Shown piece after piece: positions 383 through 23,353 of a stretch of DNA of 23,454 bases. Made by a program: the position numbers and the translations under genes. How positions within the stretch are numbered: position 1 is the first letter of the stretch; each line of letters opens with the position of its first letter. The DNA comes from a virus, in IMG/VR virus record IMGVR_UViG_3300033154_000252, positions 1 to 23,454 of that record. One strand, given 5' to 3'. A model generated the notes under the pieces. The model had not been told where the DNA came from and did no database searches. It was given only the letters and a program-made list of their open reading frames with translations.

Positions 383-862
383 TTATCTTTCCATTCTGAT
401 TGCTATTCTCATTAAGTTACCTAGTGCTCTATCTAGGATTCTTTTTTCTCTAGGTGTTAACTTTTTAAATAACTTATGATCTTTCATAGCAGGTTCAATA
501 TCTTTGTAACTGCGAATAGTGTACTTAGGATCATCAAGACCTATCTGTAAATCTAAATCTCGGTATATCTCCATAGCATCCTTTCCTAAACCATCGGTAG
601 TTTTTGCTTCATTTAAAAATGATTCAAAGGTAGGAATATGATTTTCATTTTGAGTTAACTCATCTTCATACTCTTCATCCCAGTGTGGACTTTTATTATC
701 CTCATCTCTTGTAGGATGAACATCATACCCTTGTCTTACTGGGCTATCATATGCATTAGTATCTTTGCCATCTGCTAAGTCGTCAAACATTTGTTTGAAT
801 TGTTTAACAGTACCTTTGTAATGTCTGATTGAATTTTCGTCTTGTGTTTCTTGCTTATCCAT
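383..862 (-). CDS. Hypothetical acidic protein with internal capsid-targeting-like motif
   Basis: This is the last gene (159 aa) of the leftward four-gene operon. Its ATG overlaps the upstream TAA by one base (TAATG), suggesting translational coupling. The first half is strongly acidic and hydrophilic (residues about 28-75, many D and E). Residues 77-86 read PTFESFLNEA, the same F-x-x-F-L-N-E-A motif found at the N-termini of the three genes before it. The rest is helical and ends in a basic segment (KKLTPREKRILDRALGNL). In T4 internal proteins a similar motif is N-terminal and is cut after Glu by the prohead protease. Cleavage after E85 here would remove the acidic half and leave a basic C-terminal product. 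That is inference, and no enzymatic domain is recognised. Confidence 0.75.
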   Translation of the reverse strand: MDKQETQDENSIRHYKGTVKQFKQMFDDLADGKDTNAYDSPVRQGYDVHPTRDEDNKSPHWDEEYEDELTQNENHIPTFESFLNEAKTTDGLGKDAMEIYRDLDLQIGLDDPKYTIRSYKDIEPAMKDHKLFKKLTPREKRILDRALGNLMRIAIRMER

Positions 863-1182
863 TATTTGTTTAATGTTTTTAGTAATTCATCCATATCAAA
901 TGTAAATGCGTAACCTGCGCCTTTATAACCATGATCAACCTTTACTCTAATAAACTGTCTGTATTTTTTTAATTGGTCATTTAACATATCTTCTATGTCT
1001 TTAGCAATTGCAGTTTTAGAAAATCCTGATTCTATTTCTTTATCTAATTCTTTACTGCTTGATGGCATTGCTACAATATAACCTGATAATGGCATATGAG
1101 ATATTCTATACTTAACAGCAGTGTCAGCCGTTGGCACCATAAAGTTTTTTTCATTTAAGAATTCTTTAAATTTACCTATCAT
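862..1182 (-). CDS. Hypothetical protein with N-terminal capsid-targeting-like motif
   Basis: A 106-residue protein, third in the leftward operon. Start and stop overlap both neighbours by one base (TAATG). It begins MIGKFKEFLNEK, which matches the F-x-x-F-L-N-E motif of its neighbours and resembles the T4 internal-protein leader and gp21-type site (L-x-E). The motif is followed by K rather than A. The remaining 95 residues are mixed alpha/beta with charged helices (about 42-76) and a final hydrophobic and acidic strand-helix. No transmembrane segment or catalytic motif is seen. If the leader is cut, the mature protein would start at about residue 12. A packaged internal protein is the favoured but unproven reading. 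Confidence 0.75.
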   Translation of the reverse strand: MIGKFKEFLNEKNFMVPTADTAVKYRISHMPLSGYIVAMPSSSKELDKEIESGFSKTAIAKDIEDMLNDQLKKYRQFIRVKVDHGYKGAGYAFTFDMDELLKTLNK

Positions 1183-1433
1183 TACTTTTTATATTTTTGC
1201 TTAAGTTGATGAATCTTAGTTTGATATTGTAATTTTTTAATATCAAGTTTGTCTATAGATATTCTTAATTGATAATATTCTATTGCAAAAGGATCTTCTC
1301 TATCCTGGGCAGCTCTAAATCTTTCAATGTTTTGCTGCTCTCTCCTTTTTAATCTTTCTGCTGTTTCATTTGGATTAAACTCATGCTTATCAGCTTCATT
1401 TAAATCAAAATCTTTAAAGTTACTAATGCTCAT
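1182..1433 (-). CDS. Small basic coiled-coil protein with capsid-targeting-like leader
   Basis: An 83-residue protein, second in the leftward operon, with its stop overlapping the next ATG by one base. Residues 5-14 read NFKDFDLNEA, the shared F-x-x-F...L-N-E-A motif. The rest is almost wholly charged helix: a KRREQQNIERFRAA segment at about 28-42, then a long C-terminal helix ending KLQYQTKIHQLKQKYKK that should form a coiled coil. Small size, high basic charge and a removable leader parallel T4 internal proteins and prohead-core proteins. There is no direct homology that can be asserted from sequence alone. Confidence 0.75.
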   Translation of the reverse strand: MSISNFKDFDLNEADKHEFNPNETAERLKRREQQNIERFRAAQDREDPFAIEYYQLRISIDKLDIKKLQYQTKIHQLKQKYKK

Positions 1434-1434
1434 C

Positions 1435-1914
1435 TTAAAATGTTGAATTTATAATTAGTTCTTGGATCTCGCTGATTAATTGTTTCTTTTCTCTTGATCC
1501 TTTTGGATTCCTTCCGTTAATTGCACTTATATAATTTTTATCAATTAAATAGTCTGAAATTACTGTTGCTAATACTTTAGCTCCTGATGGTTTATCTTTT
1601 CCAGCTACTTGAACCATTGCTTCATTAGTGGCAGAATAAGATTCATGAGCTTTATCTATTGCTTCATTTAAATATTTTTTAGCTTCTTTTAAATATGCTT
1701 CAGCAGTATGATCACTATTATCATTAGTTTCATACATATTTGCCTGCTCGGCCATTCCTGTTGCAACATTATTTACATGCCCAACTACAGGCTGCATACT
1801 ATATCCCGTATTAGGTATACCTGTAGCGATAGAGTATGGTTGCATATAACTAGGACCGAAACCTGCAGCTACGATAGCCTCATTAAATTTTTCGAACTTT
1901 GGTATCTTGCTCAT
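1435..1914 (-). CDS. Hypothetical protein with capsid-targeting-like leader, first gene of leftward operon
   Basis: A 159-residue protein that opens the leftward operon. It starts MSKIPKFEKFNEA, the shared motif in a shortened form (F-x-x-F-N-E-A). A low-complexity stretch rich in G, P, Y, M and V follows (about 14-55). A charged helical part then contains a second candidate cleavage site, YLNEA, at residues 81-85. The C-terminal third (about 105-159) is compact and mixed alpha/beta. The start is supported by the position of the motif and by the divergent intergenic region just upstream. The next gene begins one base after this stop. Function is unknown; a head-packaged or core protein is an inference from the motif. 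Confidence 0.75.
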   Translation of the reverse strand: MSKIPKFEKFNEAIVAAGFGPSYMQPYSIATGIPNTGYSMQPVVGHVNNVATGMAEQANMYETNDNSDHTAEAYLKEAKKYLNEAIDKAHESYSATNEAMVQVAGKDKPSGAKVLATVISDYLIDKNYISAINGRNPKGSREKKQLISEIQELIINSTF

Positions 1915-4721: not shown

Positions 4722-4794
4722 TGTCCCTTGGTGTAATTGGCAACACGTCTGGTTTTGGTCCAGAAGAGTATAGGTTCGACCCCTGTAGGGACAA
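4722..4794 (+). tRNA. tRNA-Gln (anticodon UUG)
   Basis: A complete 73-base cloverleaf. The acceptor stem is TGTCCCT with AGGGACA (4787-4793). The D stem is GTGT with ACAC. The anticodon stem TCTGG/CCAGA has the loop TTTTGGT, giving anticodon TTG (reads CAA). The T stem ATAGG/CCTGT has the loop TTCGACC. The discriminator is A4794, and CCA is not encoded. It is four bases from the next tRNA. CAA is the dominant Gln codon in the Gln-rich tail fibre downstream, a plausible reason to carry it. Confidence 0.93.
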
Positions 4795-4798
4795 CACA

Positions 4799-4873
4799 CG
4801 GGATGTAGCGTAGCCCGGTTATCGCGCCTCGTTTGGGACGAGGAGGTCGCAGGTTCGAATCCTGCCATCCCGA
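4799..4873 (+). tRNA. tRNA-Pro (anticodon UGG)
   Basis: A complete 75-base cloverleaf. The acceptor stem is CGGGATG with CATCCCG (4866-4872). The anticodon stem CCTCG/CGAGG has the loop TTTGGGA, giving anticodon TGG. The T stem GCAGG/CCTGC has the loop TTCGAAT. The discriminator is A4873, and CCA is not encoded. It is notably more GC-rich than its surroundings, as tRNAs in AT-rich genomes are. The bases from here to the ligase start (4874-4979) hold no gene that can be supported. Confidence 0.95.
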
Positions 4874-4979
4874 CAACTTTGTTTTAAAATTGTTAATAAC
4901 TTTTTGAAAAAAACAAGAGTTTATAGTTCAATTCCCAATTAAATGTATTATATTTATATTATAATAAAATAAACGGAAT

Positions 4980-8055: not shown

Positions 8056-11000
8056 ATGGCAACGTCATTTAATAACCTACAAGAATATATTCTTTTTAGA
8101 ACAGAGGTAAGAAGAGAGCTATTCAATAGAGAGGTTGATACTAATTTTCAAATGGTATCTAACCCATGGGTAGAGTCTAGAATATATGAGATAGGTAATA
8201 TTGTTTATCATCCTGTAGTTATAGATGATCCTACAACTACTGGTGAAGATCAGGTACTCGTTTGGTGGAGAGCTAACATTAGAACTACACAAGGTGTGTT
8301 TGATACTTCTGAGTGGGATATTATTGGTGGTGTCGGTTCTGGATCTATTAGTGTATCAGGTTCAAATGGCTTTGGTAAGATTAATATAAATTCTACATTA
8401 CCTACTGGAGCTTTACAAAATGGAAGTAATGCTTTAATGAAAGCCACTGTTGGTGATGATACTTTTAATCTTATTGCTGGACAAGGGATGCAGCTTCAAT
8501 ATAACTTAGCATCTAAATCTATTGTATTAATTAATTCATTAGCCTCTAATCCAGGTGAAGCTAACCTCGGTGAAAATATAGGGCAAGGTGTAACTCACCA
8601 AGATGTTTATGCAGGTAAGTCTGGTGTTAATTTACAATTTAGAGGATTTGATGCTACTAATACTACAGGTACTGCATTATCAATTAGTACTAATAATGTA
8701 CAGGACAATATTGTTTATAATTTTAATGAGGCAAAGGTTAATCTTGCAAATTTAAATGATGGTGCACCTTTAATTGGTATGCTATCAAACGTATCAGATG
8801 TTATACCTCAACCATTAGATATTTTGCAATGGAATGCAGGTTCAGGTGTATGGGCACCAACATCATTAGGTAGTTTAGGACAACAAAACATATATACCAC
8901 TAGTTCATTAATCTTGGATGCTGATAGAATAGTTAGGTTAAATGGTGCAGTTGGTAATTTACAATTTAATAGGTCTTCTGATTTAGGAACAGGCGTTCAT
9001 ATTTCTAACCTTTCAAACCAACATCAATTACAATTAAGAAATTCTTTAGCAGACGGTGTAACTGGAATACAGCATAGTTTAGCTGGTGTTGTGAAAGCTA
9101 ACACTGGCGTATATGCTAAAGCAATAGGTGTCCCACCATCATATTATATTACAATGGGAGCTAGCCCAGGTGGCTTAACTGTAGATGCGCTAGGGATATC
9201 TGCTAATAATGAATTGTATATACCTCAATTAACAACAGATACTATGGCAGCTGTTGATGACTTTAAGGTTCCAATGGTTTCTCAAACTCTAGCTTCTGGT
9301 AGGTTTGACTCAGATGATAATTGGAGAGGTTCAGTCTATAAGACACAAGATGTTGCACAAGGTTGGGGAATAAGAACATTGCAGTTTGGAGAAAATCAGA
9401 TTATTGGTTACAATGATCAAACACCTACCTTTTTTACATCTACTATTAAATCGCTGTATACACCAATCCCTAACTTTAAAGGTTATTCTCAAAATATGAG
9501 TTTGACATATGATAGTGTTGCTGAAGGTAATAATCTTAGCCAATTTCTTAGTATTGATTTTAGTCGTTATATAGGAAGTTCTATTATAACAAATCCTGTT
9601 CCAGGAGAAACACCTGCAGCTACTAAGTATATCGGTTCTAACATATCCTTATCTTATAAAAATAGTTTAGCTATCACTGTTGGTGAAATGATATATTTTA
9701 CAGAAGCAGATGCTGGAGGTAGCCCACAAACAGTAGGATTATATTCTAATGTAGTAGATACATTTGGTCCTAATGAAAATGATGGTGAAGCAGTTTTAAC
9801 AGACTTAATTACTGATAGTGGTACATGGGCTGGTTATTTTGTAGGCTGTGTTAATATTGATAAAGGTGGATTAGTTCTTCCTTCTCTTGCAGCTAACCCT
9901 GCATGTAATGATGTTAGTGGTGGAACTATTTCAGAAAGAACATTATGGATTAATTCTGCTAATGGACATTTATATAGAGGTTATGTTGATGTTGAGGCAG
10001 GAGGAAGTGGTGGAGCAACATCATTAGGACAATTAACTGATGTTACTATTACTAATGTACAAGATGATGATCTTATTGTATATAATAGTACTACTAATCA
10101 ATGGGAGAATGCTTCATTAGCACCTTATAATTTATCTGTATTAGAAAATACTGATGGAAGTGCAAGTATTCAATTAGATGACGGTGCTGCTACTAGTGAT
10201 GTTGATTTAATACCAGGTACAAATGTAACTTTTGTAATTGATGAGGTTGCTGATACTATAACAATTAATTCTGTTGGTGAAGTTGGAGCAACTGGTCCAC
10301 AGGGTCCTAGCGGTGGACCTCCTGGTGCTACTGGCGCAACTGGTGCTACTGGTTCTATTGGGTTTACTGGAGCAACTGGTATTGGATCCCAAGGAGCCAC
10401 TGGAGCTTCTATTGTTAGTGTTAGCGGTGCATGTATTAATTCTTCTACAGATCCTAATTGGGTTGGATGGAACAATATTTTAAGTGCTGCCACTAATACT
10501 ATAAGTCATAATGGGGGTGGTGGACTTATGTCTACTGTAACTACATTTCATATTGGTAGTAGCATAGCTCACCCTTTACAAACATTACTTACCGTTGGTG
10601 ATATAATTACATTTGAAGAAAATGTTTTTACTCCACCTACTACAGGACCTGCTTCATATTTAGTTACTAATATCCAATCTACTGGTAATTATGAAGAGTT
10701 AACTGTGAATTATATAAGTGGTGGTGCATGGACACCAACCTCTGGTTCAAACCAGGATGTAAATTACTGTATATACTTACAAGGTAGCGGTGGAGGTGGC
10801 GGTGGTGCCACTGGCGCAACTGGTGCTACTGGTTCTATTGGGTTTACTGGAGCAACAGGTTCTGGTGCAACAGGTATAGGTTCAACTGGATTTACTGGAG
10901 CAACAGGAAGCCAAGGAGCTACTGGAGCAACAGGATTTACCGGTGCAACTGGTATTGGAGCAACTGGATTTACTGGATCTACTGGAGCTACTGGGGTTGG

Positions 11001-14000
11001 TGCAACTGGATTTACCGGAGCTACTGGGGCGGTAAGCGGATCAATTGCATACGGTGAAATGTATGAATTAAGTTCTACCCCAGTAGCAGGATGGAATAAT
11101 GTTTTTGATGGCTGGGATACTTCAGCAGTAGGTGAAATAAGCCAAATGTCATATGTCTCATCTGGCGGAGGTGCACAGGGTGATACTTTAGTTATTGATG
11201 CAGGTGAAGGTGGGGTTTATAAAATGAGTGGTATTTATACTATTACATCTGGTGCTAATCGTGAAATAACAGTAGGAGTATTTAAGAATGGTGTTATCAT
11301 TGCACAAACAGAAACAAGTAGAGCGTTTGCTAATAATACAAGTGGATCTTTTTCAATAAACGGTTTAGAAACATTTGCCGCGGGTGATGTGATAGATGTT
11401 AGATTTAAAACTGATAATGCATCTGCATCTACTATAACAATGAATAATGTATCTTTTACATTAACTAAAGTTGTCGGTAACGGTGATGTTGGTGCGACTG
11501 GTGCAACTGGATTTACCGGTGCAACTGGATTTACCGGTGCAACTGGTATTGGAGCAACTGGAATGCAAGGATCAACAGGAAGCCAAGGAGCAACTGGAGC
11601 TGTAGGACAACAAGGAGCAACTGGTATTGGAGCAACTGGATTTATTGGAGCAACAGGTGCAGGTGCAAGTGGAGCAACAGGAATGCAAGGATCAACAGGA
11701 AGCCAAGGAGCAACTGGAGCTGTAGGACAACAAGGAGCAACTGGAGCTATAGGTCAACAAGGTGCAACTGGTGCCGTCGGTCAACAAGGAGCAAGTGGTT
11801 TACTTGGATCAACTGGTGCAACTGGTGCAATTGGCCAACAGGGTGGAACAGGTGCAATAGGTCAACAAGGAGCAAGTGGTTTACTTGGATCAACTGGTGC
11901 AACTGGTTTCCAAGGAGCAACAGGTGCTGTAGGTCAACAAGGAGCAAGTGGTTTAACTGGCCAACAAGGTGCAACAGGTGCCGTCGGTCAACAAGGAGCA
12001 ACTGGTGCCGTCGGTCAACAGGGAGCAAGTGGTTTACTTGGATCAACTGGTGCAACTGGTGCAATAGGCGAACAAGGAGCAACCGGTGCAATAGGTCAAC
12101 AAGGTGCTACTGGCTCTCAAGGAGCTACAGGAGCAGTTGGCGAACAAGGAGCAACCGGTGCAATAGGTCAACAAGGAGCAAGTGGTTTACTCGGATCAAC
12201 TGGTGCAACTGGTGCAATAGGCGAACAAGGAGCAACCGGTGCAATAGGCCAACAGGGAGCAAGTGGTTTACTCGGATCAACTGGTGCAACAGGTGTCGTC
12301 GGTCAACAAGGAGCAACTGGTGTCGTCGGTCAACAAGGAGCAACAGGAAGTCAAGGAGCTACTGGTGCGATTGGTTCAACAGGTGCAACTGGTTTAATTG
12401 GTCAACAAGGTGGAACTGGTGCTATAGGTCAACAAGGTGCTACTGGATCTCAAGGAGCAACTGGTGCTATTGGTCAACAAGGAGCAAGTGGTTTACTTGG
12501 TGCAACTGGTGCAACTGGTGCAATCGGTCAACAAGGAGCAACTGGTTCTCAAGGAGATACTGGTTCTCAAGGCGCAACAGGTGCTATAGGTAATCAAGGA
12601 GCAGTTGGTGAACAGGGTGCTATAGGCCAACAAGGAGCAAGTGGTTTACTTGGTGCAACTGGTGCAACTGGTTTCCAAGGAGCTACAGGCGCAGTTGGAG
12701 ATCAAGGACCACTCGGTCAACAGGGAGCAACAGGTACTCAAGGTAAAATTGGTCAACAAGGAGCAACAGGTATTCAAGGTAAAGCCGGTGAACAAGGAGC
12801 AGCAGGTGAACAAGGTGCAACAGGTTTCCAAGGAGCAACAGGTGCAATTGGTGGACAAGGTGCAAGCGGTTTAACTGGGCAACAAGGAGCAACTGGATTA
12901 CAAGGCGCTGTAGGTAATCAAGGTGCAACTGGAAGTCAAGGTGCAACAGGTGCCATTGGTAATCAAGGAGCTGTTGGTGAACAAGGAGCAACTGGTTCTC
13001 AGGGAGATACTGGTTCTCAAGGCGCAACTGGTGCTGTCGGTCAACAAGGAGCAACTGGTTCTCAAGGAGATACTGGTTCTCAAGGCGCAACAGGTGCTAT
13101 AGGTAATCAAGGAGCAGTTGGTGAACAAGGCGCTACAGGAGCCCAGGGAGCCAATGGTGAACAAGGTGCCGTTGGTGAACAAGGTGCAACAGGAACTCAA
13201 GGTGCCGTTGGTGAACAAGGTGCAACTGGTTCTCAAGGTGTTATTGGTGAACAAGGTGCAACAGGTGCTCAAGGTAAAGTTGGAGATCAAGGACCACTCG
13301 GTGTACAAGGAAGTACAGGAGCGCAGGGTGCAACGGGAGTTGTTGGTAATCAAGGTGCAGTAGGAGTCCAAGGATCTACTGGTATAACTTTAGGAGCTAC
13401 TGGAGCAACAGGTGCAACGGGAGCTGGGATTCAAGGTCAACAAGGTGCAACAGGTACACGAGGAGATTATGGTGGATTCCTTACAATATATACTTCTGCC
13501 AATGTTAACACTGGAAGTTTTAGTGCAAATGATGCAAACATTGATGGACCTAATTGGAAACCTGCTGCCGGTCAGGTCAATATGTATTTAAGTGCTACAG
13601 GTAATGACCCTCAATCTGGTAATCCTATCGATTATCAAAATAGTAATACGGTATACTCTGCATGGAATGCGACAATAACGGCATCTGACAATACTGCATT
13701 CGTTAGAGTATGGGAATACGGAGATCCTGATAAAGTAAATTATTATTCATTCGCTCCTAATAATATTAGTACTACAAATGGAGTTAATGGTGGTATAGAA
13801 TTAACGAAAGGTACTTATATAGGTGGTGCTGGTATTTTAACATATACACAACCAGTATTTGGTTGGGGTATGAATGGTTATAAAGGTGCCATAGGTAACC
13901 AAGGTTCACAAGGTAATCCTGGAGCAACTGGAGCTACAGGTCCGGCGGGCTCTGCAACTGCCCCAGTACAATTGATGAATAGGTTTTCAGGATATAGAAC

Positions 14001-14577
14001 TGGAGCACCTGATTGGAATGGAAGTTTTATCAGTGGTAAATACGCAGTAGGTGGTCTTGCTCCTAACTGGGGTTCACCGGATGCAACGACTCAAAAATAC
14101 TATGAAATGCAGACGGCTCAAACAGATACCTTTGATACTGAAGATTTAATTGATGCTGCATTTATTGGTAACACAACACCAGCTGATGATTTAACTGGAG
14201 GATTTATAAGAGTAACTGGAATGGCATACTTACAAGAGCAAGTATCAAACCCTACTTATCTAGGAAGAGTTAGAATAGCAATTAAGAAATTTGATATAGT
14301 TCCTAATACTGCTGGTCCTGCAACACCAACAGATCAACCTACTGGTACAATTATGGACGCTCAAACATATCAGATATCACCTAATACAGTTCCTGGACCA
14401 TTCGGAGAATATGCATGGAGTTTTATTTTAGATACAGCTACTCTCACATTGACTCGTGAGGAGTTCTATAAATTAGGATTTGCCTTTGAAGTTGTTGATA
14501 CTGGAGGTACTGGTATTACATTGTCTTCTGATAAACCTTGGTCGATTAAGTATCGAATAGAATATGTTTACAATTAA
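8056..14577 (+). CDS. Giant collagen-like tail fibre protein
   Basis: A 2173-residue protein, by far the largest here. Residues about 33-92 resemble a carbohydrate-binding module of the CBM5/12 type (Y..GNIVYHP...VWWRA...W). Long beta-rich segments follow, including two SDV/TDV...W units common in phage fibres (around residues 250-275 and 660-690). Collagen-like Gly-X-Y tracts lie at residues 744-785, 917-993, 1146-1805 and 1941-1967. They enclose a globular insert (about 786-914), a C1q/TNF-like beta domain (about 995-1143) and a further insert (about 1806-1940). The last 200 residues are a compact C-terminal domain. Collagen triple helices in phage fibres form long rigid trimers, so the globular parts are probable receptor-binding or joint domains. 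The triplets use A, T, S, Q, I and V with almost no Pro. Confidence 0.93.
10285..10410 (+). repeat. Collagen-like coding tract 1
   Basis: About 42 residues, starting [17 protein letters not shown]. This is the only tract with several prolines. The stretch at 10331-10376 is repeated exactly in tract 2, 480 bases downstream, indicating module duplication. Confidence 0.9.
10804..11034 (+). repeat. Collagen-like coding tract 2
   Basis: 77 residues of Gly-X-Y, mostly GATG, GFTG and GIGATG. It begins after a poly-Gly hinge (codons from about 10789) and carries a 46-base exact copy (10811-10856) of part of tract 1. It ends at the C1q-like domain. Confidence 0.9.
11491..13470 (+). repeat. Main collagen-like tract of 27-bp and 18-bp modules
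   Basis: 660 residues, nearly unbroken Gly-X-Y. The sequence is a mosaic of nine-residue modules ([27 protein letters not shown] and close variants) and six-residue modules ([18 protein letters not shown]). Nine-residue modules dominate the first two thirds; six-residue modules dominate the end. Bases 11561-11624 recur exactly at 11681-11744. The tract is therefore a strong substrate for slippage and recombination. Confidence 0.95.
13876..13956 (+). repeat. Collagen-like coding tract 4 (short)
   Basis: 27 residues of Gly-X-Y ([19 protein letters not shown]...), forming a stalk between the last insert and the C-terminal domain of the fibre. Confidence 0.85.
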
Positions 14578-16878: not shown

Positions 16879-18513
16879 ATGGCAAAGTTTGGACAAAAGA
16901 TAAGAGACTTAAATGACTCTATTTTTCCAGGGCCTAATAAAAATAATGATCAAATATTAGGCGTATTTGGTGGAGAGAGTGTAGGCTTTGCTAGATCTTT
17001 GGCTGATACCGTTGCAACTAGTTTTTATTCAGCTGATAATGCAGCAGAAGCTTCAGGTGATACCATCCCTAAAGGTATGTCAGGTAAAAAAATCGTAGGT
17101 TCAATAGCTAATAAGTACGCACTATTTAACTTCCAAGGAATGTATGGAGATTTTGCAACTGACCAAGGATTTAAAGGTAATTACATGGATACTGAAAGAG
17201 CCGCTGGTAAACTGATGGGTGGAGAGGCAGGTAACAAACCTACTGTCATGAAAATAATAAATTACTTTAATGAAGCACATCCAAAAATAGGATATACTGC
17301 TTCTAATTTTTTATATTCTAAATATTATAAGAAGATACCAGTTAATCATTTAATTACTCTTAGAAGGTTTCCTATGCCAGTTAAAGATAACATATTTAAG
17401 TTTTCGGAATCACAGGCAGTTAAGCAAGAAGTTAAAGATGGTGAAAAACCACCACCAGAAGATCCAATAGTAGTCGGTGATACTTCACAAGTAGCAGGTG
17501 TAACTGCAATTACTTATATGGGTGAAACTGCTGGTAATAAATTAGAGGACATTATGAATATGTCATTTGGTTTAACCTTTAAGGAACTGAAAGGTGAAAT
17601 GGAAAAAATTGAAGGCGGCGGAGATGGTGGATATACTCAGCAACCTTTTTATAATAAAATTGGTGGTATAGGTAGAGCGATTGCTAATCAAGCTAAAGGG
17701 CAAGGTTCAGGTGATGTGTTTAGAAAGCAACAAGGTTACGGATCACAGAGTGGAGATCGACTTGGTAGTACTTACGCAAACTTTGTATTAGGTCCTATTA
17801 ATGTTGTTAATACAACTCAAGTAAGAGATAGAGGTATAAACTTTACTAATGATATTAAACTAAATTTTGAATATGAATTAAAATCATTAGCTTATGTTAA
17901 TCCAAAAATAGCAATGATTGATATTATTAGTAATATGTTAACTATGACAACTAATAATGGAGCATTCTTTGGTGGTGGGCATAGGTATTATGGATCTGCT
18001 GGTTTTGTAGCTAGTCAGTTTGGAGATATTTCAAAATTAAGACAAGGTGATTTTTCTGGTTATGCAGGCAGTGTAGTTAATGATATTGAAGGTGGATTTA
18101 AAAGTGTATTTGGTAATGCTGATGGTGGATTTGATTTTGATTCAATCATAAGTGGTGGGATTGAAACAGCCAAGAATTATCTAGGTGGCTTATTAGGTAA
18201 TTTATTAGGCGGACAGGTTGGTGGTAATAGTGGTACTGGTGCAACCAAAGCTTTCATTAGTGGTGAGCCTACTGGTGATTGGCATTTAACAATTGGTAAT
18301 CCATTGAATCCGATTGCAATGATGGGTAATATGATATGTAAAAATGCTAATATGACATTAGGTGCAGGATTAGGTTATGATGATTTTCCAATGGAGGTAA
18401 AATTTGAATTAGATATGGCTCACGGAAAGCCTAGGGATAAAGGAGATATAGAAAATATGTTTAATGCAGGTAAAGGTAGAATATATGCATCTGCTAATAA
18501 GGCTGAAATGTAG
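16879..18513 (+). CDS. Large tail/baseplate structural protein (candidate tube-initiator type)
   Basis: A 544-residue protein with Gly-rich, low-Cys composition typical of virion proteins. It has an alpha/beta middle (ITLRRFPMPVKDNIF at about 159-173) and a Gly/Ser linker. The C-terminal domain contains GDWHLTIGNPLNPIAMMGNM and FPMEVKFELDMAHGKPRDKG, a beta-rich pattern suggestive of tail-tube-like or tube-cap proteins (T4 gp48/gp54). That identification is tentative. The gene directly precedes the LysM/gp53-like and hub genes, as in many contractile tails. The stop at 18511-18513 may be premature: a different frame remains open for 56 further codons and no independent start is available (see the next entry). 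Confidence 0.7.
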   Translation: MAKFGQKIRDLNDSIFPGPNKNNDQILGVFGGESVGFARSLADTVATSFYSADNAAEASGDTIPKGMSGKKIVGSIANKYALFNFQGMYGDFATDQGFKGNYMDTERAAGKLMGGEAGNKPTVMKIINYFNEAHPKIGYTASNFLYSKYYKKIPVNHLITLRRFPMPVKDNIFKFSESQAVKQEVKDGEKPPPEDPIVVGDTSQVAGVTAITYMGETAGNKLEDIMNMSFGLTFKELKGEMEKIEGGGDGGYTQQPFYNKIGGIGRAIANQAKGQGSGDVFRKQQGYGSQSGDRLGSTYANFVLGPINVVNTTQVRDRGINFTNDIKLNFEYELKSLAYVNPKIAMIDIISNMLTMTTNNGAFFGGGHRYYGSAGFVASQFGDISKLRQGDFSGYAGSVVNDIEGGFKSVFGNADGGFDFDSIISGGIETAKNYLGGLLGNLLGGQVGGNSGTGATKAFISGEPTGDWHLTIGNPLNPIAMMGNMICKNANMTLGAGLGYDDFPMEVKFELDMAHGKPRDKGDIENMFNAGKGRIYASANKAEM

Positions 18514-18677
18514 GAACTAGTAGTATTCAAAAAACTCAGTCAGGTGCAACTGCAGGTCAGGTTAAAAGTAAAGATATTTCAAATCTTAAAAAGACAACTG
18601 GAAGCGCATCCCCGGCAACAGAGGCAACTAGCGGTGAATATGTTTCTAGTGTTGTTAGTATGCTAATTGATTCATAA
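18507..18677 (+). other. -1 frame continuation of the structural gene (frameshift or lost base)
   Basis: A frame offset by -1 from the 544-codon gene is open from 18507 to the TAA at 18675-18677 and has no usable ATG except six codons from its end. Its translation (GTSSIQKTQSGATAGQVK... ending VVSMLIDS) is normal coding-like, Ser/Thr/Ala-rich sequence. It fills exactly the space before the next gene at 18691. A single extra base near 18512 would fuse it to the upstream gene as AEM-(x)-GTSS. No classic X-XXY-YYZ slippery heptamer lies in the allowed window 18505-18513. An assembly or sequencing indel, or a true mutation, is thus more likely than programmed slippage. Confidence 0.6.
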
Positions 18678-18690
18678 AAAATAATTAAGG

Positions 18691-19227
18691 ATGGATATAA
18701 AATCATTAACTTTAAAAAACTTATTAAGTATTGAAAGAACAGGTGAACAGTATTATGATTTAACTGCTCCTTCTTTTAAATATGATAAAGCTGCTGGTCT
18801 TAAGGCTTTACATTATGTTATGCAAGATGAGGCTGGTAGAATTGATAAGATATGCGAAAGATATTTTGGAACAGGTGAATATGTTGATGCATTATGTATT
18901 GTTAATAATATCTTTAATCCGTTTTCAGTACAAGAAGGTGATGTTTTAGTCATACCTAATTTAAGTGAAATTAATTTGGTTTATAAAAGACCAAACCCTG
19001 CATCTAGGCCTAATCCTGTTATGAAGCCTTATGTTGATACTGGTGTTCAAAGTGTGGAAGATCAATCTCGTATACAAAGGTTAGCTCAAAAAGCTAAGTC
19101 AAAAAAATCAGGAGTTAAAACTCCATTACCACCAAACGTGCTACAGCAAGGACAAGACGCTAAGACATATGAAGGTGGAAATATTCAATTAGGAACTAAT
19201 TTACCAACTAGAAATAGAAACAATTAA
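18691..19227 (+). CDS. Baseplate protein with LysM-like domain (gp53/Afp7-like)
   Basis: A 178-residue protein. Residues about 47-91 (AGRIDKICERYFGTGEYVDALCIVNNIFNPF, then EGDVLVIPNL) fit the LysM-like fold: an initial helix, W/Y...IxxxNxIxNP, and a closing strand after a G-D turn. In contractile tails this fold occurs in T4 gp53 and in the Afp7/LysM tube-associated adaptor, which link the hub to the wedges or tube. A basic, Pro-rich disordered tail follows (about 98-178). AAGG four bases before the ATG is one of the few Shine-Dalgarno-like sequences here. Hub and spike genes follow directly, which supports the assignment. Confidence 0.7.
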   Translation: MDIKSLTLKNLLSIERTGEQYYDLTAPSFKYDKAAGLKALHYVMQDEAGRIDKICERYFGTGEYVDALCIVNNIFNPFSVQEGDVLVIPNLSEINLVYKRPNPASRPNPVMKPYVDTGVQSVEDQSRIQRLAQKAKSKKSGVKTPLPPNVLQQGQDAKTYEGGNIQLGTNLPTRNRNN

Positions 19228-19233
19228 TAAGAT

Positions 19234-20718
19234 ATGTCTACACAGATTGAAAGAAACATATTAACAATAATAGAACCTACTATTGAACTAGATGAGTTAT
19301 TTATACCTGATGCTGAAAGTGGTACAGATAATTCTGACGGTGTAACTATGAAAGAAAAATTATCTAAATTTTCTTCTATCATTCCTTTGATTGTAATTAA
19401 TCAATACCAAGTTCAAATGGATAGGCTTAAATATTTTTCTTTAGAATCTACTGGGTTTTATCCAACATTAACAGTTAGATTTGCTGATACTGATGGACTT
19501 TTTACTGCAAGAAATTATCCTAAAGATGGAGATATAATTCAACTTTACATTAGGTCACAAGGTGAAGAAACTACATTTAAGCCTATAAGAATTGATTTTA
19601 CTATTATTGATTGTTCTCCAGCTGGTGGAGGTGGTGGAATGACCGCTAAAGAATATAACATATTTGGTAGAATGTTTATTCCTGATTTATTTACTGAAAA
19701 GGTTGAATATGAAGAAAATGTTACAAGCTGGGATGCATTATCAAATATAGCAGAAAGATTAAAAATAGGTTATGCTTCTAATGTTGAAGATACAGCAGAT
19801 CAAATGACATGGACTAATCCTAATGACACAACTGAAACTTGGATACAAGACATAGTTGCAAATAGTTATTTAAGTGACGAAACATTTTTTACAAGCTACA
19901 TTGATCCATATTATTACTTAACAATGGTAGACGTTAATAGATTATTTGATCAAGATAAGTCTGAGTTAGAAGTAAGCCAAAGTTTTAGTACAAATGCATC
20001 TGATACTTATGGAGCAGATGGTGCAACCGGTGAAACTCCGTTTCCTAACCTATTATCTAATTTAATTCAAATGCAAGGGGGTGCAAGATATCTATCTAAA
20101 TATAAACCTACTAATAAGAGTGGAGAAATAAGTAAAGCAAATGGATATAAAAGATATACTCAGTATTGGGATTTAGAAGCAAAGCAATGGATTAGTGAAT
20201 TTGTGGATCCTCTTACTAATGGTACTGAAGGTACAATACCAGCAACAAAAGGTAGAGTAATAAACGGTGAACCAGAAGGCCCTAGAAATAGTCAAGTTAA
20301 ATACAAATATTTAGGTACACAAGGCGATAATGTCCACCCTGAATTTCAATATGCTGTAGTTCAAAATTATCAAAATAATTCTGAAATAGAAAAAATGGGA
20401 ATGGAAGTAGAATTAGATACTGTAAATCCTGCTTTAACTAGATATAGTAGAATTTATCTTTTGATTTTTGAATATGGATCTCCAGTTAAAACTGTATTAA
20501 CTGAACAGCGAGATGGTGTAGCTCAAACAGGCGATCCAGCTCCACAAGATAGAGAAAGGTCAGATGAAGATGAACCTAAAGGTCCAGGTAGTGGAATTCT
20601 TAATGAATATTTAAGTGGCTTTTATGTTATAACTGGTATTGAATATTTGTTAACACAACCAGGGCCACTAAGAATGAGATTACAATTACAGCGTAGGGAA
20701 TACACTCCAACGACTTAA
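19234..20718 (+). CDS. Baseplate hub-like protein (gp27/late control D-like candidate)
   Basis: A 494-residue, largely beta-rich protein. The order of elements is an N-terminal segment (LDELFIPDAE), a beta region with VQMDRLKYFSLESTGFYPTLTVRF, a middle domain with DALSNIAERLKIGYASN, an acidic and Pro-rich linker (about 428-453), and a terminal strand pair (GFYVITGIEYL and PLRMRLQLQRREY). Early strands, a helical peptidoglycan-hub-like middle and late strands resemble the hub that carries the spike in T4 (gp27) and Mu/P2 (gpD). The gene lies between the LysM-like protein and the gp5-like spike. Sequence similarity is too low for certainty. Confidence 0.6.
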   Translation: MSTQIERNILTIIEPTIELDELFIPDAESGTDNSDGVTMKEKLSKFSSIIPLIVINQYQVQMDRLKYFSLESTGFYPTLTVRFADTDGLFTARNYPKDGDIIQLYIRSQGEETTFKPIRIDFTIIDCSPAGGGGGMTAKEYNIFGRMFIPDLFTEKVEYEENVTSWDALSNIAERLKIGYASNVEDTADQMTWTNPNDTTETWIQDIVANSYLSDETFFTSYIDPYYYLTMVDVNRLFDQDKSELEVSQSFSTNASDTYGADGATGETPFPNLLSNLIQMQGGARYLSKYKPTNKSGEISKANGYKRYTQYWDLEAKQWISEFVDPLTNGTEGTIPATKGRVINGEPEGPRNSQVKYKYLGTQGDNVHPEFQYAVVQNYQNNSEIEKMGMEVELDTVNPALTRYSRIYLLIFEYGSPVKTVLTEQRDGVAQTGDPAPQDRERSDEDEPKGPGSGILNEYLSGFYVITGIEYLLTQPGPLRMRLQLQRREYTPTT

Positions 20719-20740: not shown

Positions 20741-21808
20741 ATGCCTTTAGTAGATTTAACTAGCCCTGCAGGAATTAACGGAGTATCTCAGTTAGCTGGA
20801 CCTTACGGAAACCTTTTAGGTGGGTCATCTTTCCCGAGCAGTTATGAATTTGCTAAAAGATTTGTTAATAATTCAAAATCTGCATATGGGTCAGGTGCTA
20901 ACGGAGTAACCTCATTAGATGATCCTACTTATCTTGGCTTCAGTTTAATGTTTGATATATCATCACCATTATTTAATGGCGCCACATCAGGACCTGGATC
21001 TGGTATAAACGATGGAGAATTTACAGTTGAGAATACTGTTAATCAAGGTATAGCTGCTGCGGGTCAATTATTTAATAAAACTTCAAAAGAAAAACCTGGT
21101 GGAGATTTAAATACACCAAGCGGTGCATCTGCTATTGGTTACCTAGAAGCCATAGGTGAAGTAAATCGAGCTAAATATCTAAAAGCATTTATTCAAGGCA
21201 TACAAGAAATTAACAATACAAGACCTTATTATTTTCAAACCATAGCAGGAATACAAGAGGCTTGGCAAAAATCTACAGACTTTTCAATTGATCCTTATAC
21301 TGGAAGTAGCGGTGAAGAAGGTATTACTATAGGATGTTTAGAAGCAATAGATTTAAAATTAACTGCATTATTTAGTTTATATAAAATGGCTGTGTATGAT
21401 AGTATGTACAAGCGATTTATTTTGCCTAAAAATTTAATGAAGTTTGATGTATATGTTTATGTTCAAGAAATAAGAAAATTTAAAACCACAAGAAATTGGT
21501 TACAGGCAACAAACCCTAGTACTACAAATTCTTCTGATTCTTATGTAAATCAAAACGCATCACAAGTAGGTTTTAAATTTACTGATTGTGAATGGGATCC
21601 TAGAGCATCTGGAAAAGTATTTGAAGGTGTAACTAATTCAGGTGGTGAAATAACCACTACTGAAATTAAATGGACTTATGCATTAATGGAAAATGTTTCT
21701 CAGTTTGCTGGTTATGATAATAAATTAGATGCAAGTAAAGTACAAACAGATAATCAATTTTTTGGTAAAGTAAAAGCGTTATCCAGTTCAATTAGGAAAT
21801 GTGTTTGA
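20741..21808 (+). CDS. Tail/baseplate structural protein
   Basis: A 355-residue protein with a Gly/Ser-rich N-terminus (LTSPAGINGVSQLAG), a helical middle (about 130-190) and a beta-rich C-terminal domain containing FDVYVYVQEIRKF and then DCEWDPRASGKVFEG and EIKWTYALMEN. The C-terminal pattern of a domain with long strands and a short insert is like tube-fold virion proteins, so this may be a second tube-type or hub-associated subunit. The small gene that follows overlaps or abuts it (TGATATG). No enzyme motif is present. Confidence 0.65.
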   Translation: MPLVDLTSPAGINGVSQLAGPYGNLLGGSSFPSSYEFAKRFVNNSKSAYGSGANGVTSLDDPTYLGFSLMFDISSPLFNGATSGPGSGINDGEFTVENTVNQGIAAAGQLFNKTSKEKPGGDLNTPSGASAIGYLEAIGEVNRAKYLKAFIQGIQEINNTRPYYFQTIAGIQEAWQKSTDFSIDPYTGSSGEEGITIGCLEAIDLKLTALFSLYKMAVYDSMYKRFILPKNLMKFDVYVYVQEIRKFKTTRNWLQATNPSTTNSSDSYVNQNASQVGFKFTDCEWDPRASGKVFEGVTNSGGEITTTEIKWTYALMENVSQFAGYDNKLDASKVQTDNQFFGKVKALSSSIRKCV

Positions 21809-21809
21809 T

Positions 21810-22109
21810 ATGACACAAGTTACTTTAGGTGGTATAGGAAACCCTCAGGCTTTACGTAATGCTTTAGTTGGTGCAGCAGTTCAAGGTAATGAAGATGGTT
21901 TAAAACTATTTGGTCAAAATGAAAATATTAGCCAAAGACTTGGGGATAATCCATTAGGTACCGCCGATGAACCTAACCAAACTATTGCAGGCAATACTCA
22001 AGCGTTTGATCCTGTTACTCCACCTAGTGAGTTTAGTGGTGGTAATGCATTCGGTCCATCATGCCCTCCAAATAATTCAACTATAACTAACGAAAATATT
22101 TTTAACTAA
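21810..22109 (+). CDS. Small Asn/Gly-rich hypothetical structural protein
   Basis: A 99-residue protein (102 if the GTG at 21801 is used). The ATG at 21810 is preferred because it comes one base after the previous stop. It is rich in N, G, Q and P, with little secondary structure in the last 50 residues (PVTPPSEFSGGNAF, CPPNN). This suggests an extended linker or a hub-spike connector. Its TAA overlaps the spike ATG as TAATG, so the two are co-translated. Confidence 0.65.
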   Translation: MTQVTLGGIGNPQALRNALVGAAVQGNEDGLKLFGQNENISQRLGDNPLGTADEPNQTIAGNTQAFDPVTPPSEFSGGNAFGPSCPPNNSTITNENIFN

Positions 22110-23029
22110 TGGGAAAGGTTAATCCAGCAAATTTTAATGCCGATGATTTGCGAACTACACAATGGGTAGGAATCGTTGAAGATACTAATGATGATATCTT
22201 TGAAGGGAGATGTAAGATTAGGGTATATGGTAAAATGGATGACCGTGTAGATCCTGAAGATCCTGAAAGTGCTTTTATTATTCCTACTGCTGCTTTACCG
22301 TGGTCAAGGCCACATCAGTTAATGTATGGAGGTAGTAATAGTGGAAGTGGTAAATTTGAAATTCCTAAACTAGGCTCAATAGTTAGGATCACGTTTGACA
22401 ACGGAAATTTTTATCAACCAGTTTATCATGAAAATGTTTATCCTTCTGATGAAACAAAAGCGGAGATAGAAGCATCATATCAAAATTCTCATGTATTAAT
22501 ATATGATACGGCTTTCGGTTTAACTGGTGCATTAGAAGATGGGGTATCTGAAGCAACAAATGAAAGAGAAGGTGAACATATTAAAGTTTTCTTTACAGAA
22601 GAAAAAGGATTAATGATGGACTATACTACAACCGAAGGTCCAACAACTGTTAATGTAAAGCCTGATAACTCTGTTGAAATAATAAATGCAAACGGAGATT
22701 CAATTATAATGCTTAATGATGGTAATATAACATTTACACACTCGGCTCAGTTTACAATTAACAGTGGAGCTGATACTGTAATTAATGCTACAACTAACAC
22801 TGTTGTTAATTGTGTTGAGGCTAAGATTAATGCTTCTGCTGAAACTCATGTTAATTCACCACGTATTAAACTAGGAGAAGCAGCGGCGGAGTCAGTTATG
22901 AAAGGTGATACATTTAGAGCTTGGGTAGATGGGCATACACATGTTGCAAGTAAATCAGGTACGCCGACTAGTCCACCTATTGTACCATCACCAGGTGGTG
23001 CATACAGTTCAAAGAATACAACTGACTAA
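22109..23029 (+). CDS. 5-like: Baseplate spike (gp5/gpV-like), no lysozyme domain
   Basis: A 306-residue membrane-puncturing spike. Residues about 15-115 form the OB-fold that sits on the hub (VGIVEDTNDDIFEGRCKIRVYGKM at 20-43, PALPWSR-type turn, and GSIVRITFDNGNFYQPVY at 89-106). A linker follows. Residues about 175-265 are short repeated strands with N, T and V (DSVEIINANGDSIIMLNDG..., TVINATTNTVVNC), expected to wind into the trimeric beta-helical needle. The C-terminus has GHTH (275-278) and then a Ser/Pro tail, as in gpV-type tips, where the His pairs may bind metal. T4 gp5 has an inserted lysozyme between the OB-fold and the needle. Here that space is too short to hold one, so cell-wall cutting must come from elsewhere. 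Confidence 0.85.
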   Translation: MGKVNPANFNADDLRTTQWVGIVEDTNDDIFEGRCKIRVYGKMDDRVDPEDPESAFIIPTAALPWSRPHQLMYGGSNSGSGKFEIPKLGSIVRITFDNGNFYQPVYHENVYPSDETKAEIEASYQNSHVLIYDTAFGLTGALEDGVSEATNEREGEHIKVFFTEEKGLMMDYTTTEGPTTVNVKPDNSVEIINANGDSIIMLNDGNITFTHSAQFTINSGADTVINATTNTVVNCVEAKINASAETHVNSPRIKLGEAAAESVMKGDTFRAWVDGHTHVASKSGTPTSPPIVPSPGGAYSSKNTTD

Positions 23030-23045
23030 TATATAAACTATAAAT
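23027..23045 (+). promoter_or_regulatory. AT-rich box TAATATATAAACTATAAAT before the 97-residue gene
   Basis: Overlaps the spike stop. It contains TATAAATC (7/8 to the T4 late box) at 23039-23046 and shares TAATATATAA with the boxes at 15179 and 23405. The ATG follows 14 bases later. Confidence 0.35.
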
Positions 23046-23059
23046 CAAACAATTAAATT

Positions 23060-23353
23060 ATGCCATTAGTATTATCTCAGATTCAGGCAGGAATGGAAAA
23101 AGCCTGGTTAGAAGCCAATAAAGCAGGTAGAAAAGCAGGAAAGGATAACCTGGAACATATAAAAGATGGAGGAGATCCCTTTAAGATGCCAGTTTCAGCC
23201 GCTACAATTGAAGAAGCACAGGCCGAAAAATTTGGTGAAATTGCCGGTTTGGAAATTGATAAGTACATAAAATCAGGATTGGTATCTACTACTGTAACGA
23301 CGGTGGGAACAGCAACAGCTCAGGCAGGTTCTGGTACAGGTGCCATCACATAA
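23060..23353 (+). CDS. Small hypothetical phage protein after the spike
   Basis: A 97-residue protein. The N-terminal two thirds are amphipathic helix (QIQAGMEKAWLEANKAGRKAGKD, EEAQAEKFGEIAGLEIDKYIKSG). The C-terminal part is small-residue beta, TTVTTVGTATAQAGSG. Such short proteins next to spikes often belong to the baseplate or tail tip, but nothing here fixes the role. It has neither a PAAR nor a gp25 pattern. Confidence 0.65.
   Translation: MPLVLSQIQAGMEKAWLEANKAGRKAGKDNLEHIKDGGDPFKMPVSAATIEEAQAEKFGEIAGLEIDKYIKSGLVSTTVTTVGTATAQAGSGTGAIT

Follow-up and report, generated by a model that had tools for sequence, protein, structure and literature searches.

For phage proteins that enter the host with the DNA and act against its defences, the internal proteins of phage T4 serve as the model. 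The 23,454-base virus record analysed here (hereafter the window), itself a fragment, carries a minus-strand operon of four unlike genes and raises the question of whether their products are of this kind. An earlier note on this DNA had pointed to a motif common to all four products and had read it as a T4-like signal for head targeting and cleavage by a prohead protease. From the comparisons described below, we consider it quite probable that the operon encodes internal head proteins or polyproteins of a T4-related marine phage, with targeting by an FxxF leader, cleavage after Glu by an S77 protease and exchange of cassettes. This reading draws on leaders held in common, a protease gene in a collinear relative and an excess of sites at module borders; packaging and cleavage are suggested by the T4 analogy together with the border statistics.

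A motif common to four adjacent genes

Adjacent ORFs of the operon either share one base or sit one base apart (Table 1). The motif F-x-x-F-(0-2)-N-E is present in 4/4 operon ORFs and in 0/26 of the remaining window ORFs (30 greedy ORFs), as the earlier note had claimed for the four products. It had also held that such sharing is hard to obtain by chance, and composition-preserving shuffles agree, since the motif arose anywhere in the protein in 0.13% of cases for gene 1435-1914, 0.38% for 1182-1433, 0.31% for 862-1182 and 0.17% for 383-862. The motif closes an N-terminal leader of 11-13 residues in three of the four genes, the number given in the note, and is internal in the fourth (383-862). 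The T4 leader MKTYQEFIAEA quoted there for comparison is correct and opens two T4 ORFs. When the genes were compared with the T4 type, which has a short N-terminal leader with a gp21-type E↓A (the arrow marks a predicted cut or a module junction) and unlike bodies, three of the four agreed with it, 862-1182 having E↓K instead of E↓A, and 383-862 departed from it in its internal site.

Searches of PHROGs and Pfam gave no usable match for the four operon proteins; at E <= 0.5, Pfam returned nothing for three of them, including 862-1182, and for the fourth only matches below the curated cut-off. The 2 to 15 recognised domains that characterise polyvalent proteins were not found in them. Next to the operon, the hairpin at 334-360 has a minus-strand fold of -12.1 kcal/mol (z -3.67) and a terminator-like prediction on both strands.

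Table 1. Positions of the operon genes, their predicted parts and the adjoining hairpin in the window (arrow, predicted cut or module junction).
Feature	Position	Strand	Description
Gene 1435-1914	1435-1914	minus	159 aa ORF; motif FEKFNE, residues 7-12
Leader MSKIPKFEKFNE	1879-1914	minus	residues 1-12; predicted cut E12↓A13, from motif and homologues
Body of 1435-1914	1435-1878	minus	conserved middle, then C-terminal module after SATNE98↓AMVQ
Gene 1182-1433	1182-1433	minus	83 aa ORF; motif FKDFDLNE, residues 6-13
Leader MSISNFKDFDLNE	1395-1433	minus	residues 1-13; predicted cut E13↓A14
Body ADKHEFNPNETAERLKRREQQ.. of 1182-1433	1182-1394	minus	coiled-coil-like by eye
Gene 862-1182	862-1182	minus	106 aa ORF; motif FKEFLNE, residues 5-11
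Leader MIGKFKEFLNE	1150-1182	minus	residues 1-11; predicted cut E11↓K12
Body of 862-1182	862-1149	minus	small alpha/beta domain (predicted model)
Gene 383-862	383-862	minus	159 aa ORF
N-terminal domain of 383-862	629-862	minus	residues 1-78; own N-terminus without leader
Internal FESFLNE	608-628	minus	residues 79-85, between two modules; predicted cut E85↓A86
C-terminal module (AKTTDGLG..) of 383-862	383-607	minus	from homologue comparison
Probable bidirectional terminator	334-360	both	between operon and convergent plus-strand ORF ending at 316

Leaders, sites and modules in homologues

Homologue rows were counted for all four genes with ORFs under 75 aa left out. For 1182-1433, NE follows FxxF or FxxY in 24/24 distinct rows. 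In the window, the body of this protein follows the bare leader; in L045, L047 (which is the contig G003 described below), L048, L049, L050, L007 and L074, between one and three other cassettes come before it, and in these seven relatives the junctions from cassette to body read TE↓A, VE↓A, DE↓A, AE↓A or NE↓A. For 862-1182, the leader is conserved better than the body: M1, I2, L9, N10 and E11 are invariant across 11 aligned sequences (the window plus 10), among which whole-protein identity to the window goes down to 35%. One of the 12 homologue rows of this gene is an ORF call that begins 3' of the leader, though tblastn covered residues 1-106. The predicted model of 862-1182 (pLDDT 68.5 overall and 57-58 across residues 1-20) places a low-confidence helix at residues 3-10, in the leader, and gave no fold match in PDB and BFVD at E <= 0.001.

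At the leader site of 1435-1914, (N/D)E is kept in 16/24 distinct homologue rows; the other eight retain FxxF (as PxFxxF) without NE, and the same eight carry a different C-module. The C-module beginning ATNE↓AMVQ is swapped for (L/V/I)NE↓GTDISSWNQ in 8/24 rows, a module similar to the GTDISSW type also ends the G003 leader gene 77476-78051, and L074 has an additional cassette, flanked by two sites, at the C-module site. By pattern, the body contains a further candidate site, YLNE84↓A. No relative turned up when genome contigs were scanned with the alignment of 1435-1914, and the predicted model of this protein (pLDDT 54.3) was too poor for a fold search.

The N-terminal domain of 383-862 is retained in homologues in which the C-part is different or missing. 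The site is present in 15/15 rows with the TTDGL-type module and in 0/12 rows without it (one of the 12 being a tile-cut duplicate of another row); in these 12 of 27 rows the downstream module is missing or substituted. In L041, a leader and the C-module of 383-862 are encoded as a gene of their own. Because 383-862 has its own N-terminus without a leader, its packaging is unexplained by a T4-type tag. The conserved leader and variable body that the earlier note had proposed to look for in homologues are seen for 862-1182 and 1182-1433 and in part for 1435-1914 and 383-862, and the reverse arrangement, a conserved body without the leader, which it had named as speaking against its reading, occurs in part, in the 8/24 rows of 1435-1914 and 12/27 rows of 383-862 described above.

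A gp21-type protease in a collinear relative

Genomic context was provided by G003, a 181,663-base IMG/VR contig to which 25/30 window ORFs could be matched, 24 with their order preserved. Its gp21-type head protease (Peptidase_S77; 18182-19903, E 6e-16) has the portal gene as one neighbour and the major capsid gene as the other. By eye, this protein has T4-like GEL(N/D)HP and SSR segments, which we take to hold the catalytic residues. The protease continues into a long tail that is repetitive and contains NE sites, and the chain may combine protease and scaffold; long tailed versions are likewise found in PTm1 and pT24, and the PAU version is short. Applied to seven phage records, the same S77 model was positive for T4, PTm1, PAU, pT24 and one uncultured phage and negative for phi4:1 and crAss001.

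The search for a gp21-like protease that the earlier note had proposed had a divided outcome among the 16 records with operon homologues: the collinear G003 was positive, and the other 15, which are fragments of 14-84 kb, gave no S77 match. A portal was looked for in two of these 15 fragments and was absent from both. The S77 protease was present in 13/20 records picked from 74 rows that matched modules of two leader-like genes in G003, several of the 13 looking like near-copies of one phage (same score); the sole record above 130 kb without the protease among those 20 ends inside the portal gene. By its collinearity with G003, the phage from which the window comes probably encodes such a protease as well. 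The window product 20741-21808 is distantly related to proteins of Tenacibaculum phages PTm1 and pT24, Sphingomonas phage PAU and Lak phages.

The capsid N-region reads HNHKLYE↓DA in 8/8 S77 relatives' records (three near-identical), and the G003 capsid has HYHNLNE↓SV ahead of the conserved region, with L-x-E as in T4; in the capsids of PTm1, PAU and pT24 no clear L-x-E was seen at the aligned column. The LYE↓D and LNE↓S sites of the capsids and the sites in the protease tail are putative cut sites.

Several other window features were recorded. The ORF at 8056-14577 encodes a 2173-aa fibre with collagen-like GATGxxG repeats, the G003 counterpart being far shorter (1237 aa). Genes for tRNA-Gln and tRNA-Pro occupy 4722-4874, and 51 bases of the tRNA-Gln are 92% identical to the counterpart in Cellulophaga phage phi4:1. 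The 193-aa product of 3927-4508 matches the minor coat family phrog_1644 (2.7e-34), and its best G003 match sits elsewhere in that genome.

Leaders elsewhere in the genomes of relatives

We searched the genomes of G003 and a second relative, G019, for further leaders. Because a wider leader regex had been composed after inspecting the leaders of the window, G003 and G019, these genomes provide no held-out test for it, and the motif of the earlier note, fixed beforehand, was therefore run on both. It occurs within the first 30 residues of 4/210 G003 genes (200 shuffles: mean 0.21, max 2) and of 5/201 G019 genes (500 shuffles: mean 0.19, max 2), with 0-1 in six control phages; the genome-wide search that the note had proposed thus gives over-representation at N-termini in these two relatives. 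Among the G003 genes, 120258-121157 and 121159-121644 are the operon counterparts, 177704-178030 has a clear leader and 140864-142156 is not leader-like; three of the five in G019 are leader-looking. The wider regex matched 5/210 genes in G003 and 7/201 in G019 (means 0.31 and 0.32; reached in 0/500 shuffles; controls 0-1), the fifth G003 match and one of the seven in G019 not being leader-like. Regex B gave 5 matches in G003, 6 in G019, 2 in T4 and 0 in the remaining five controls. A loose leader regex did not set G003 apart from the controls and was rejected as too weak (8 in G003 vs 3-4 expected), and in an unbiased N-terminal triple-pattern scan PAU stood out and G003 was not above the control phages.

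By eye, about 20 G003 genes open with a leader of the MKxIKxFxxF..NEA type, and 4 of them pass the wider regex. The leader-like genes of G003 are mostly clustered near 73-78, 92-97 and 172-181 kb. When G003 genes were ranked by NE[AGS] excess, the protease was among the top ten and the other nine were all leader-like (uncorrected p 2e-4 to 0.04). The G003 protease ORF contains 4 NE[AGS] vs 1.1 expected, and the protease ranks first in PTm1 and pT24.

Some leader-like proteins of relatives have recognisable domains. G003 50058-51275 and G019 32280-33233 are ATP-grasp proteins with YheCD-type matches, possible head-delivered ligases, and the former also matches a PHROG annotated as ribosomal protein S6 glutaminyl transferase; others have a CaMKII_AD/SnoaL-like match or a weak AAA match. 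These matches suggest that enzymes may be among the cargo. A cytidylyltransferase-like domain occurs in L149:452-2311, which has a module in common with the leader-like gene at the G003 end.

A further set of leaders was seen in PAU (JQ362498), in which 19 genes have an MK(T/S/G)(L/I)..L(Y/F)E-like start (e.g., 106051-113735) according to a regex composed after inspecting PAU genes. A or S follows (Y/F)E in 15/19 of them (shuffle mean 0.02, max 1), their bodies have no mutual BLASTP match at E <= 1e-3, and several adjoin the S77 protease and capsid gene. In the unbiased scan, LYE was the top PAU pattern, with 16 genes vs 1.5 expected. Judged from these sequences, the MKTLxxLYE set of PAU is a second leader type.

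Sites at module borders

Homologues of the four operon genes differ by entire modules, and we surveyed module borders in 1584 distinct ORFs from 138 sources. This is a non-random sample, its loci having been obtained via leader genes, and control motifs were scored on it too. Sharp borders were grouped into 62 families by sequence beyond the motif, and a family was counted if at least half of its pairs had the site on both sides. By this measure, (N/T/D)E↓(A/G/S) stands on both sides of the border in 10/62 families against 2.7 expected, a single-side expectation (Poisson p 5e-4), and 19/62 families have a both-side site in at least one pair. Eleven control motifs at the same 62 borders gave 0-2 families each. 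In the greedy grouping described below, some control motifs showed a mild one-sided excess ([LIV]E[AGS], 3 and 5 vs 1.5 and 1.4).

Other treatments of the borders were compared. Unfiltered borders, with no identity filter and with the collagen-like fibres included, gave 144/1806 vs 61 expected. A greedy grouping that kept related families apart (sharp borders, proteins above 14% glycine removed, one representative each) gave 11/63 with the site against an expectation of 2.2-2.8; its both-side expectation of 0.13 presumes independent sides and was not used. Single linkage of motif-containing 12-mers was rejected, as the shared motif chains groups together and collapses them to 34 families, 1 of them with the site. 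A tblastn search with a multi-cassette homologue against 50,697 phage records returned nothing at E 1e-3.

Proposed maturation and alternative explanations

Under the reading that we prefer, the FxxF leader would draw each precursor into the prohead core, as the T4 capsid targeting sequence does, and the gp21-type serine protease of the phage would cleave after Glu at (N/T/D)-E↓(A/G/S/K) and release the bodies inside the head. Where a protein has several modules, as in 383-862 and the C-terminal part of 1435-1914, these cuts would divide a polyprotein into small proteins. Two further steps, injection along with the DNA and an effect on host defences, are putative. We propose that relatives swap, gain and lose cassettes at the sites because any site-bordered cassette would mature identically. 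The targeting and protease reading of the earlier note is supported in part, by the S77 gene of G003, the N-terminal motifs of two relatives and the module swaps; in 383-862 the motif is an internal junction and not a leader. For the broader notion of a modular prohead polyprotein system, in which many head-delivered proteins evolve by exchanging cassettes bordered by prohead-protease sites, we lean only slightly towards acceptance; if true, a new cassette would be packaged by a pre-existing leader and released by the same protease.

Three other explanations compete with this one. The leader motif could mark scaffold or core proteins, like T4 gp22, gp67 and gp68, that are degraded in maturation and not delivered, which we regard as rather unlikely. 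T4 core proteins are indeed fragmented by gp21, the same protease that processes the internal proteins (PMC9026906), the 1182-1433 body looks coiled-coil-like, and G003 22041-23111, directly after the capsid gene, combines a leader with coiled-coil-like composition (its profile matches are below the cut-off). Against degradation, strict-pattern cut sites are few in the window bodies, with two in 1435-1914 and, beyond leader or junction, none in the remaining three, and other leader-like proteins have enzyme-like domains (ATP-grasp, CaMKII_AD/SnoaL-like). Alternatively, NE(A/G/S) may be no more than a flexible linker or recombination seam, with swaps arising through shared short DNA or tolerance of fusions and no cleavage. 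The sites are short and the strict two-sided site is missing in 52/62 sharp border families, so swapping also takes place elsewhere. We nevertheless judge this account unlikely. The clear both-side excess is limited to (N/T/D)E(A/G/S) and is not seen for the reversed motif or for E(N/T/D)(A/G/S); the same site stands beside the N-termini of unlike proteins, a position that calls for no linker, and is present in the tail of the protease itself. A DNA hot spot is made less likely by codon use at the sites, which is close to the genome background (AAT is in mild excess in G003), and the site DNA is diverse (49 distinct 9-mers at 110 sites in G003, 50 at 105 sites in G019).

It is also conceivable, though very improbable in our estimate, that FxxF serves for docking to a partner shared by these proteins, such as a scaffold, portal, replication or decoration protein, with neither packaging nor cleavage. 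In its favour, the leader is a short helix in the low-confidence model, and the eight rows of 1435-1914 that retain PxFxxF without Glu indicate that FxxF can persist apart from the cut site. Bodies, however, are exchanged at the Glu rather than at FxxF, and some rows of 383-862 read VTE↓GRKTTDGL, having lost FxxF and kept E↓G; docking and cleavage can, in any case, coexist, as they do in T4. The preferred reading of targeting followed by cleavage predicts the exact new N-termini of the mature proteins. With a readable leader and cut-site rule, candidate head-delivered proteins could be listed from sequence in uncultured marine phages, and cassette exchange at maturation sites would account for new injected proteins without new targeting signals.

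Comparison with known systems

Targeting leaders and gp21 processing are already known. T4 gp21 recognises L/I-X-E and cleaves behind the Glu, and IPIII needs no more than its first 10 residues for packaging (PMC9026906); T-even internal proteins have only the capsid targeting sequence (CTS) in common, and IPI* shields DNA from a restriction enzyme (PMC3012670). The proteins described here resemble T4 IPI-IPIII and Alt, with their CTS, in their short N-terminal leaders, which have E↓A and aromatic spacing, and in their unlike bodies, and the collinear G003 has an S77 protease as T4 does. They differ from the T4 internal proteins in their leader consensus, F-x-x-F-x-N-E, in the internal site of one window gene and in the multi-cassette proteins of relatives that exchange cassettes at the sites, for which we found no T4 counterpart in the sources consulted. 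Neither this leader set nor an exchange of cassettes at prohead-protease sites was found described in searches of the open PMC literature.

The ejection (inner body) proteins of SPN3US and phiKZ, cut by gp245 and gp175, are likewise packaged in the head and cleaved after Glu at a short motif, with several cuts inside one propeptide (PMC5694885, PMC10052503). In those phages several propeptides exceed 100 residues, with AXE as the motif in SPN3US, whereas the leaders here have 11-13 residues and cassettes are exchanged at the borders. The polyvalent proteins found in phages and conjugative elements are also multi-domain, shuffled and thought to be delivered with the DNA (PMC5512222). For one of them, P1 DdrB, self-cleavage by a built-in MPTase domain has been proposed (PMC5512222), in contrast to the separate prohead protease predicted here to cut at cassette borders. 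The PAU MKTLxxLYE set resembles the present one in belonging to an S77 phage and in having a common leader with a (Y/F)E end on unlike bodies, with a different consensus.
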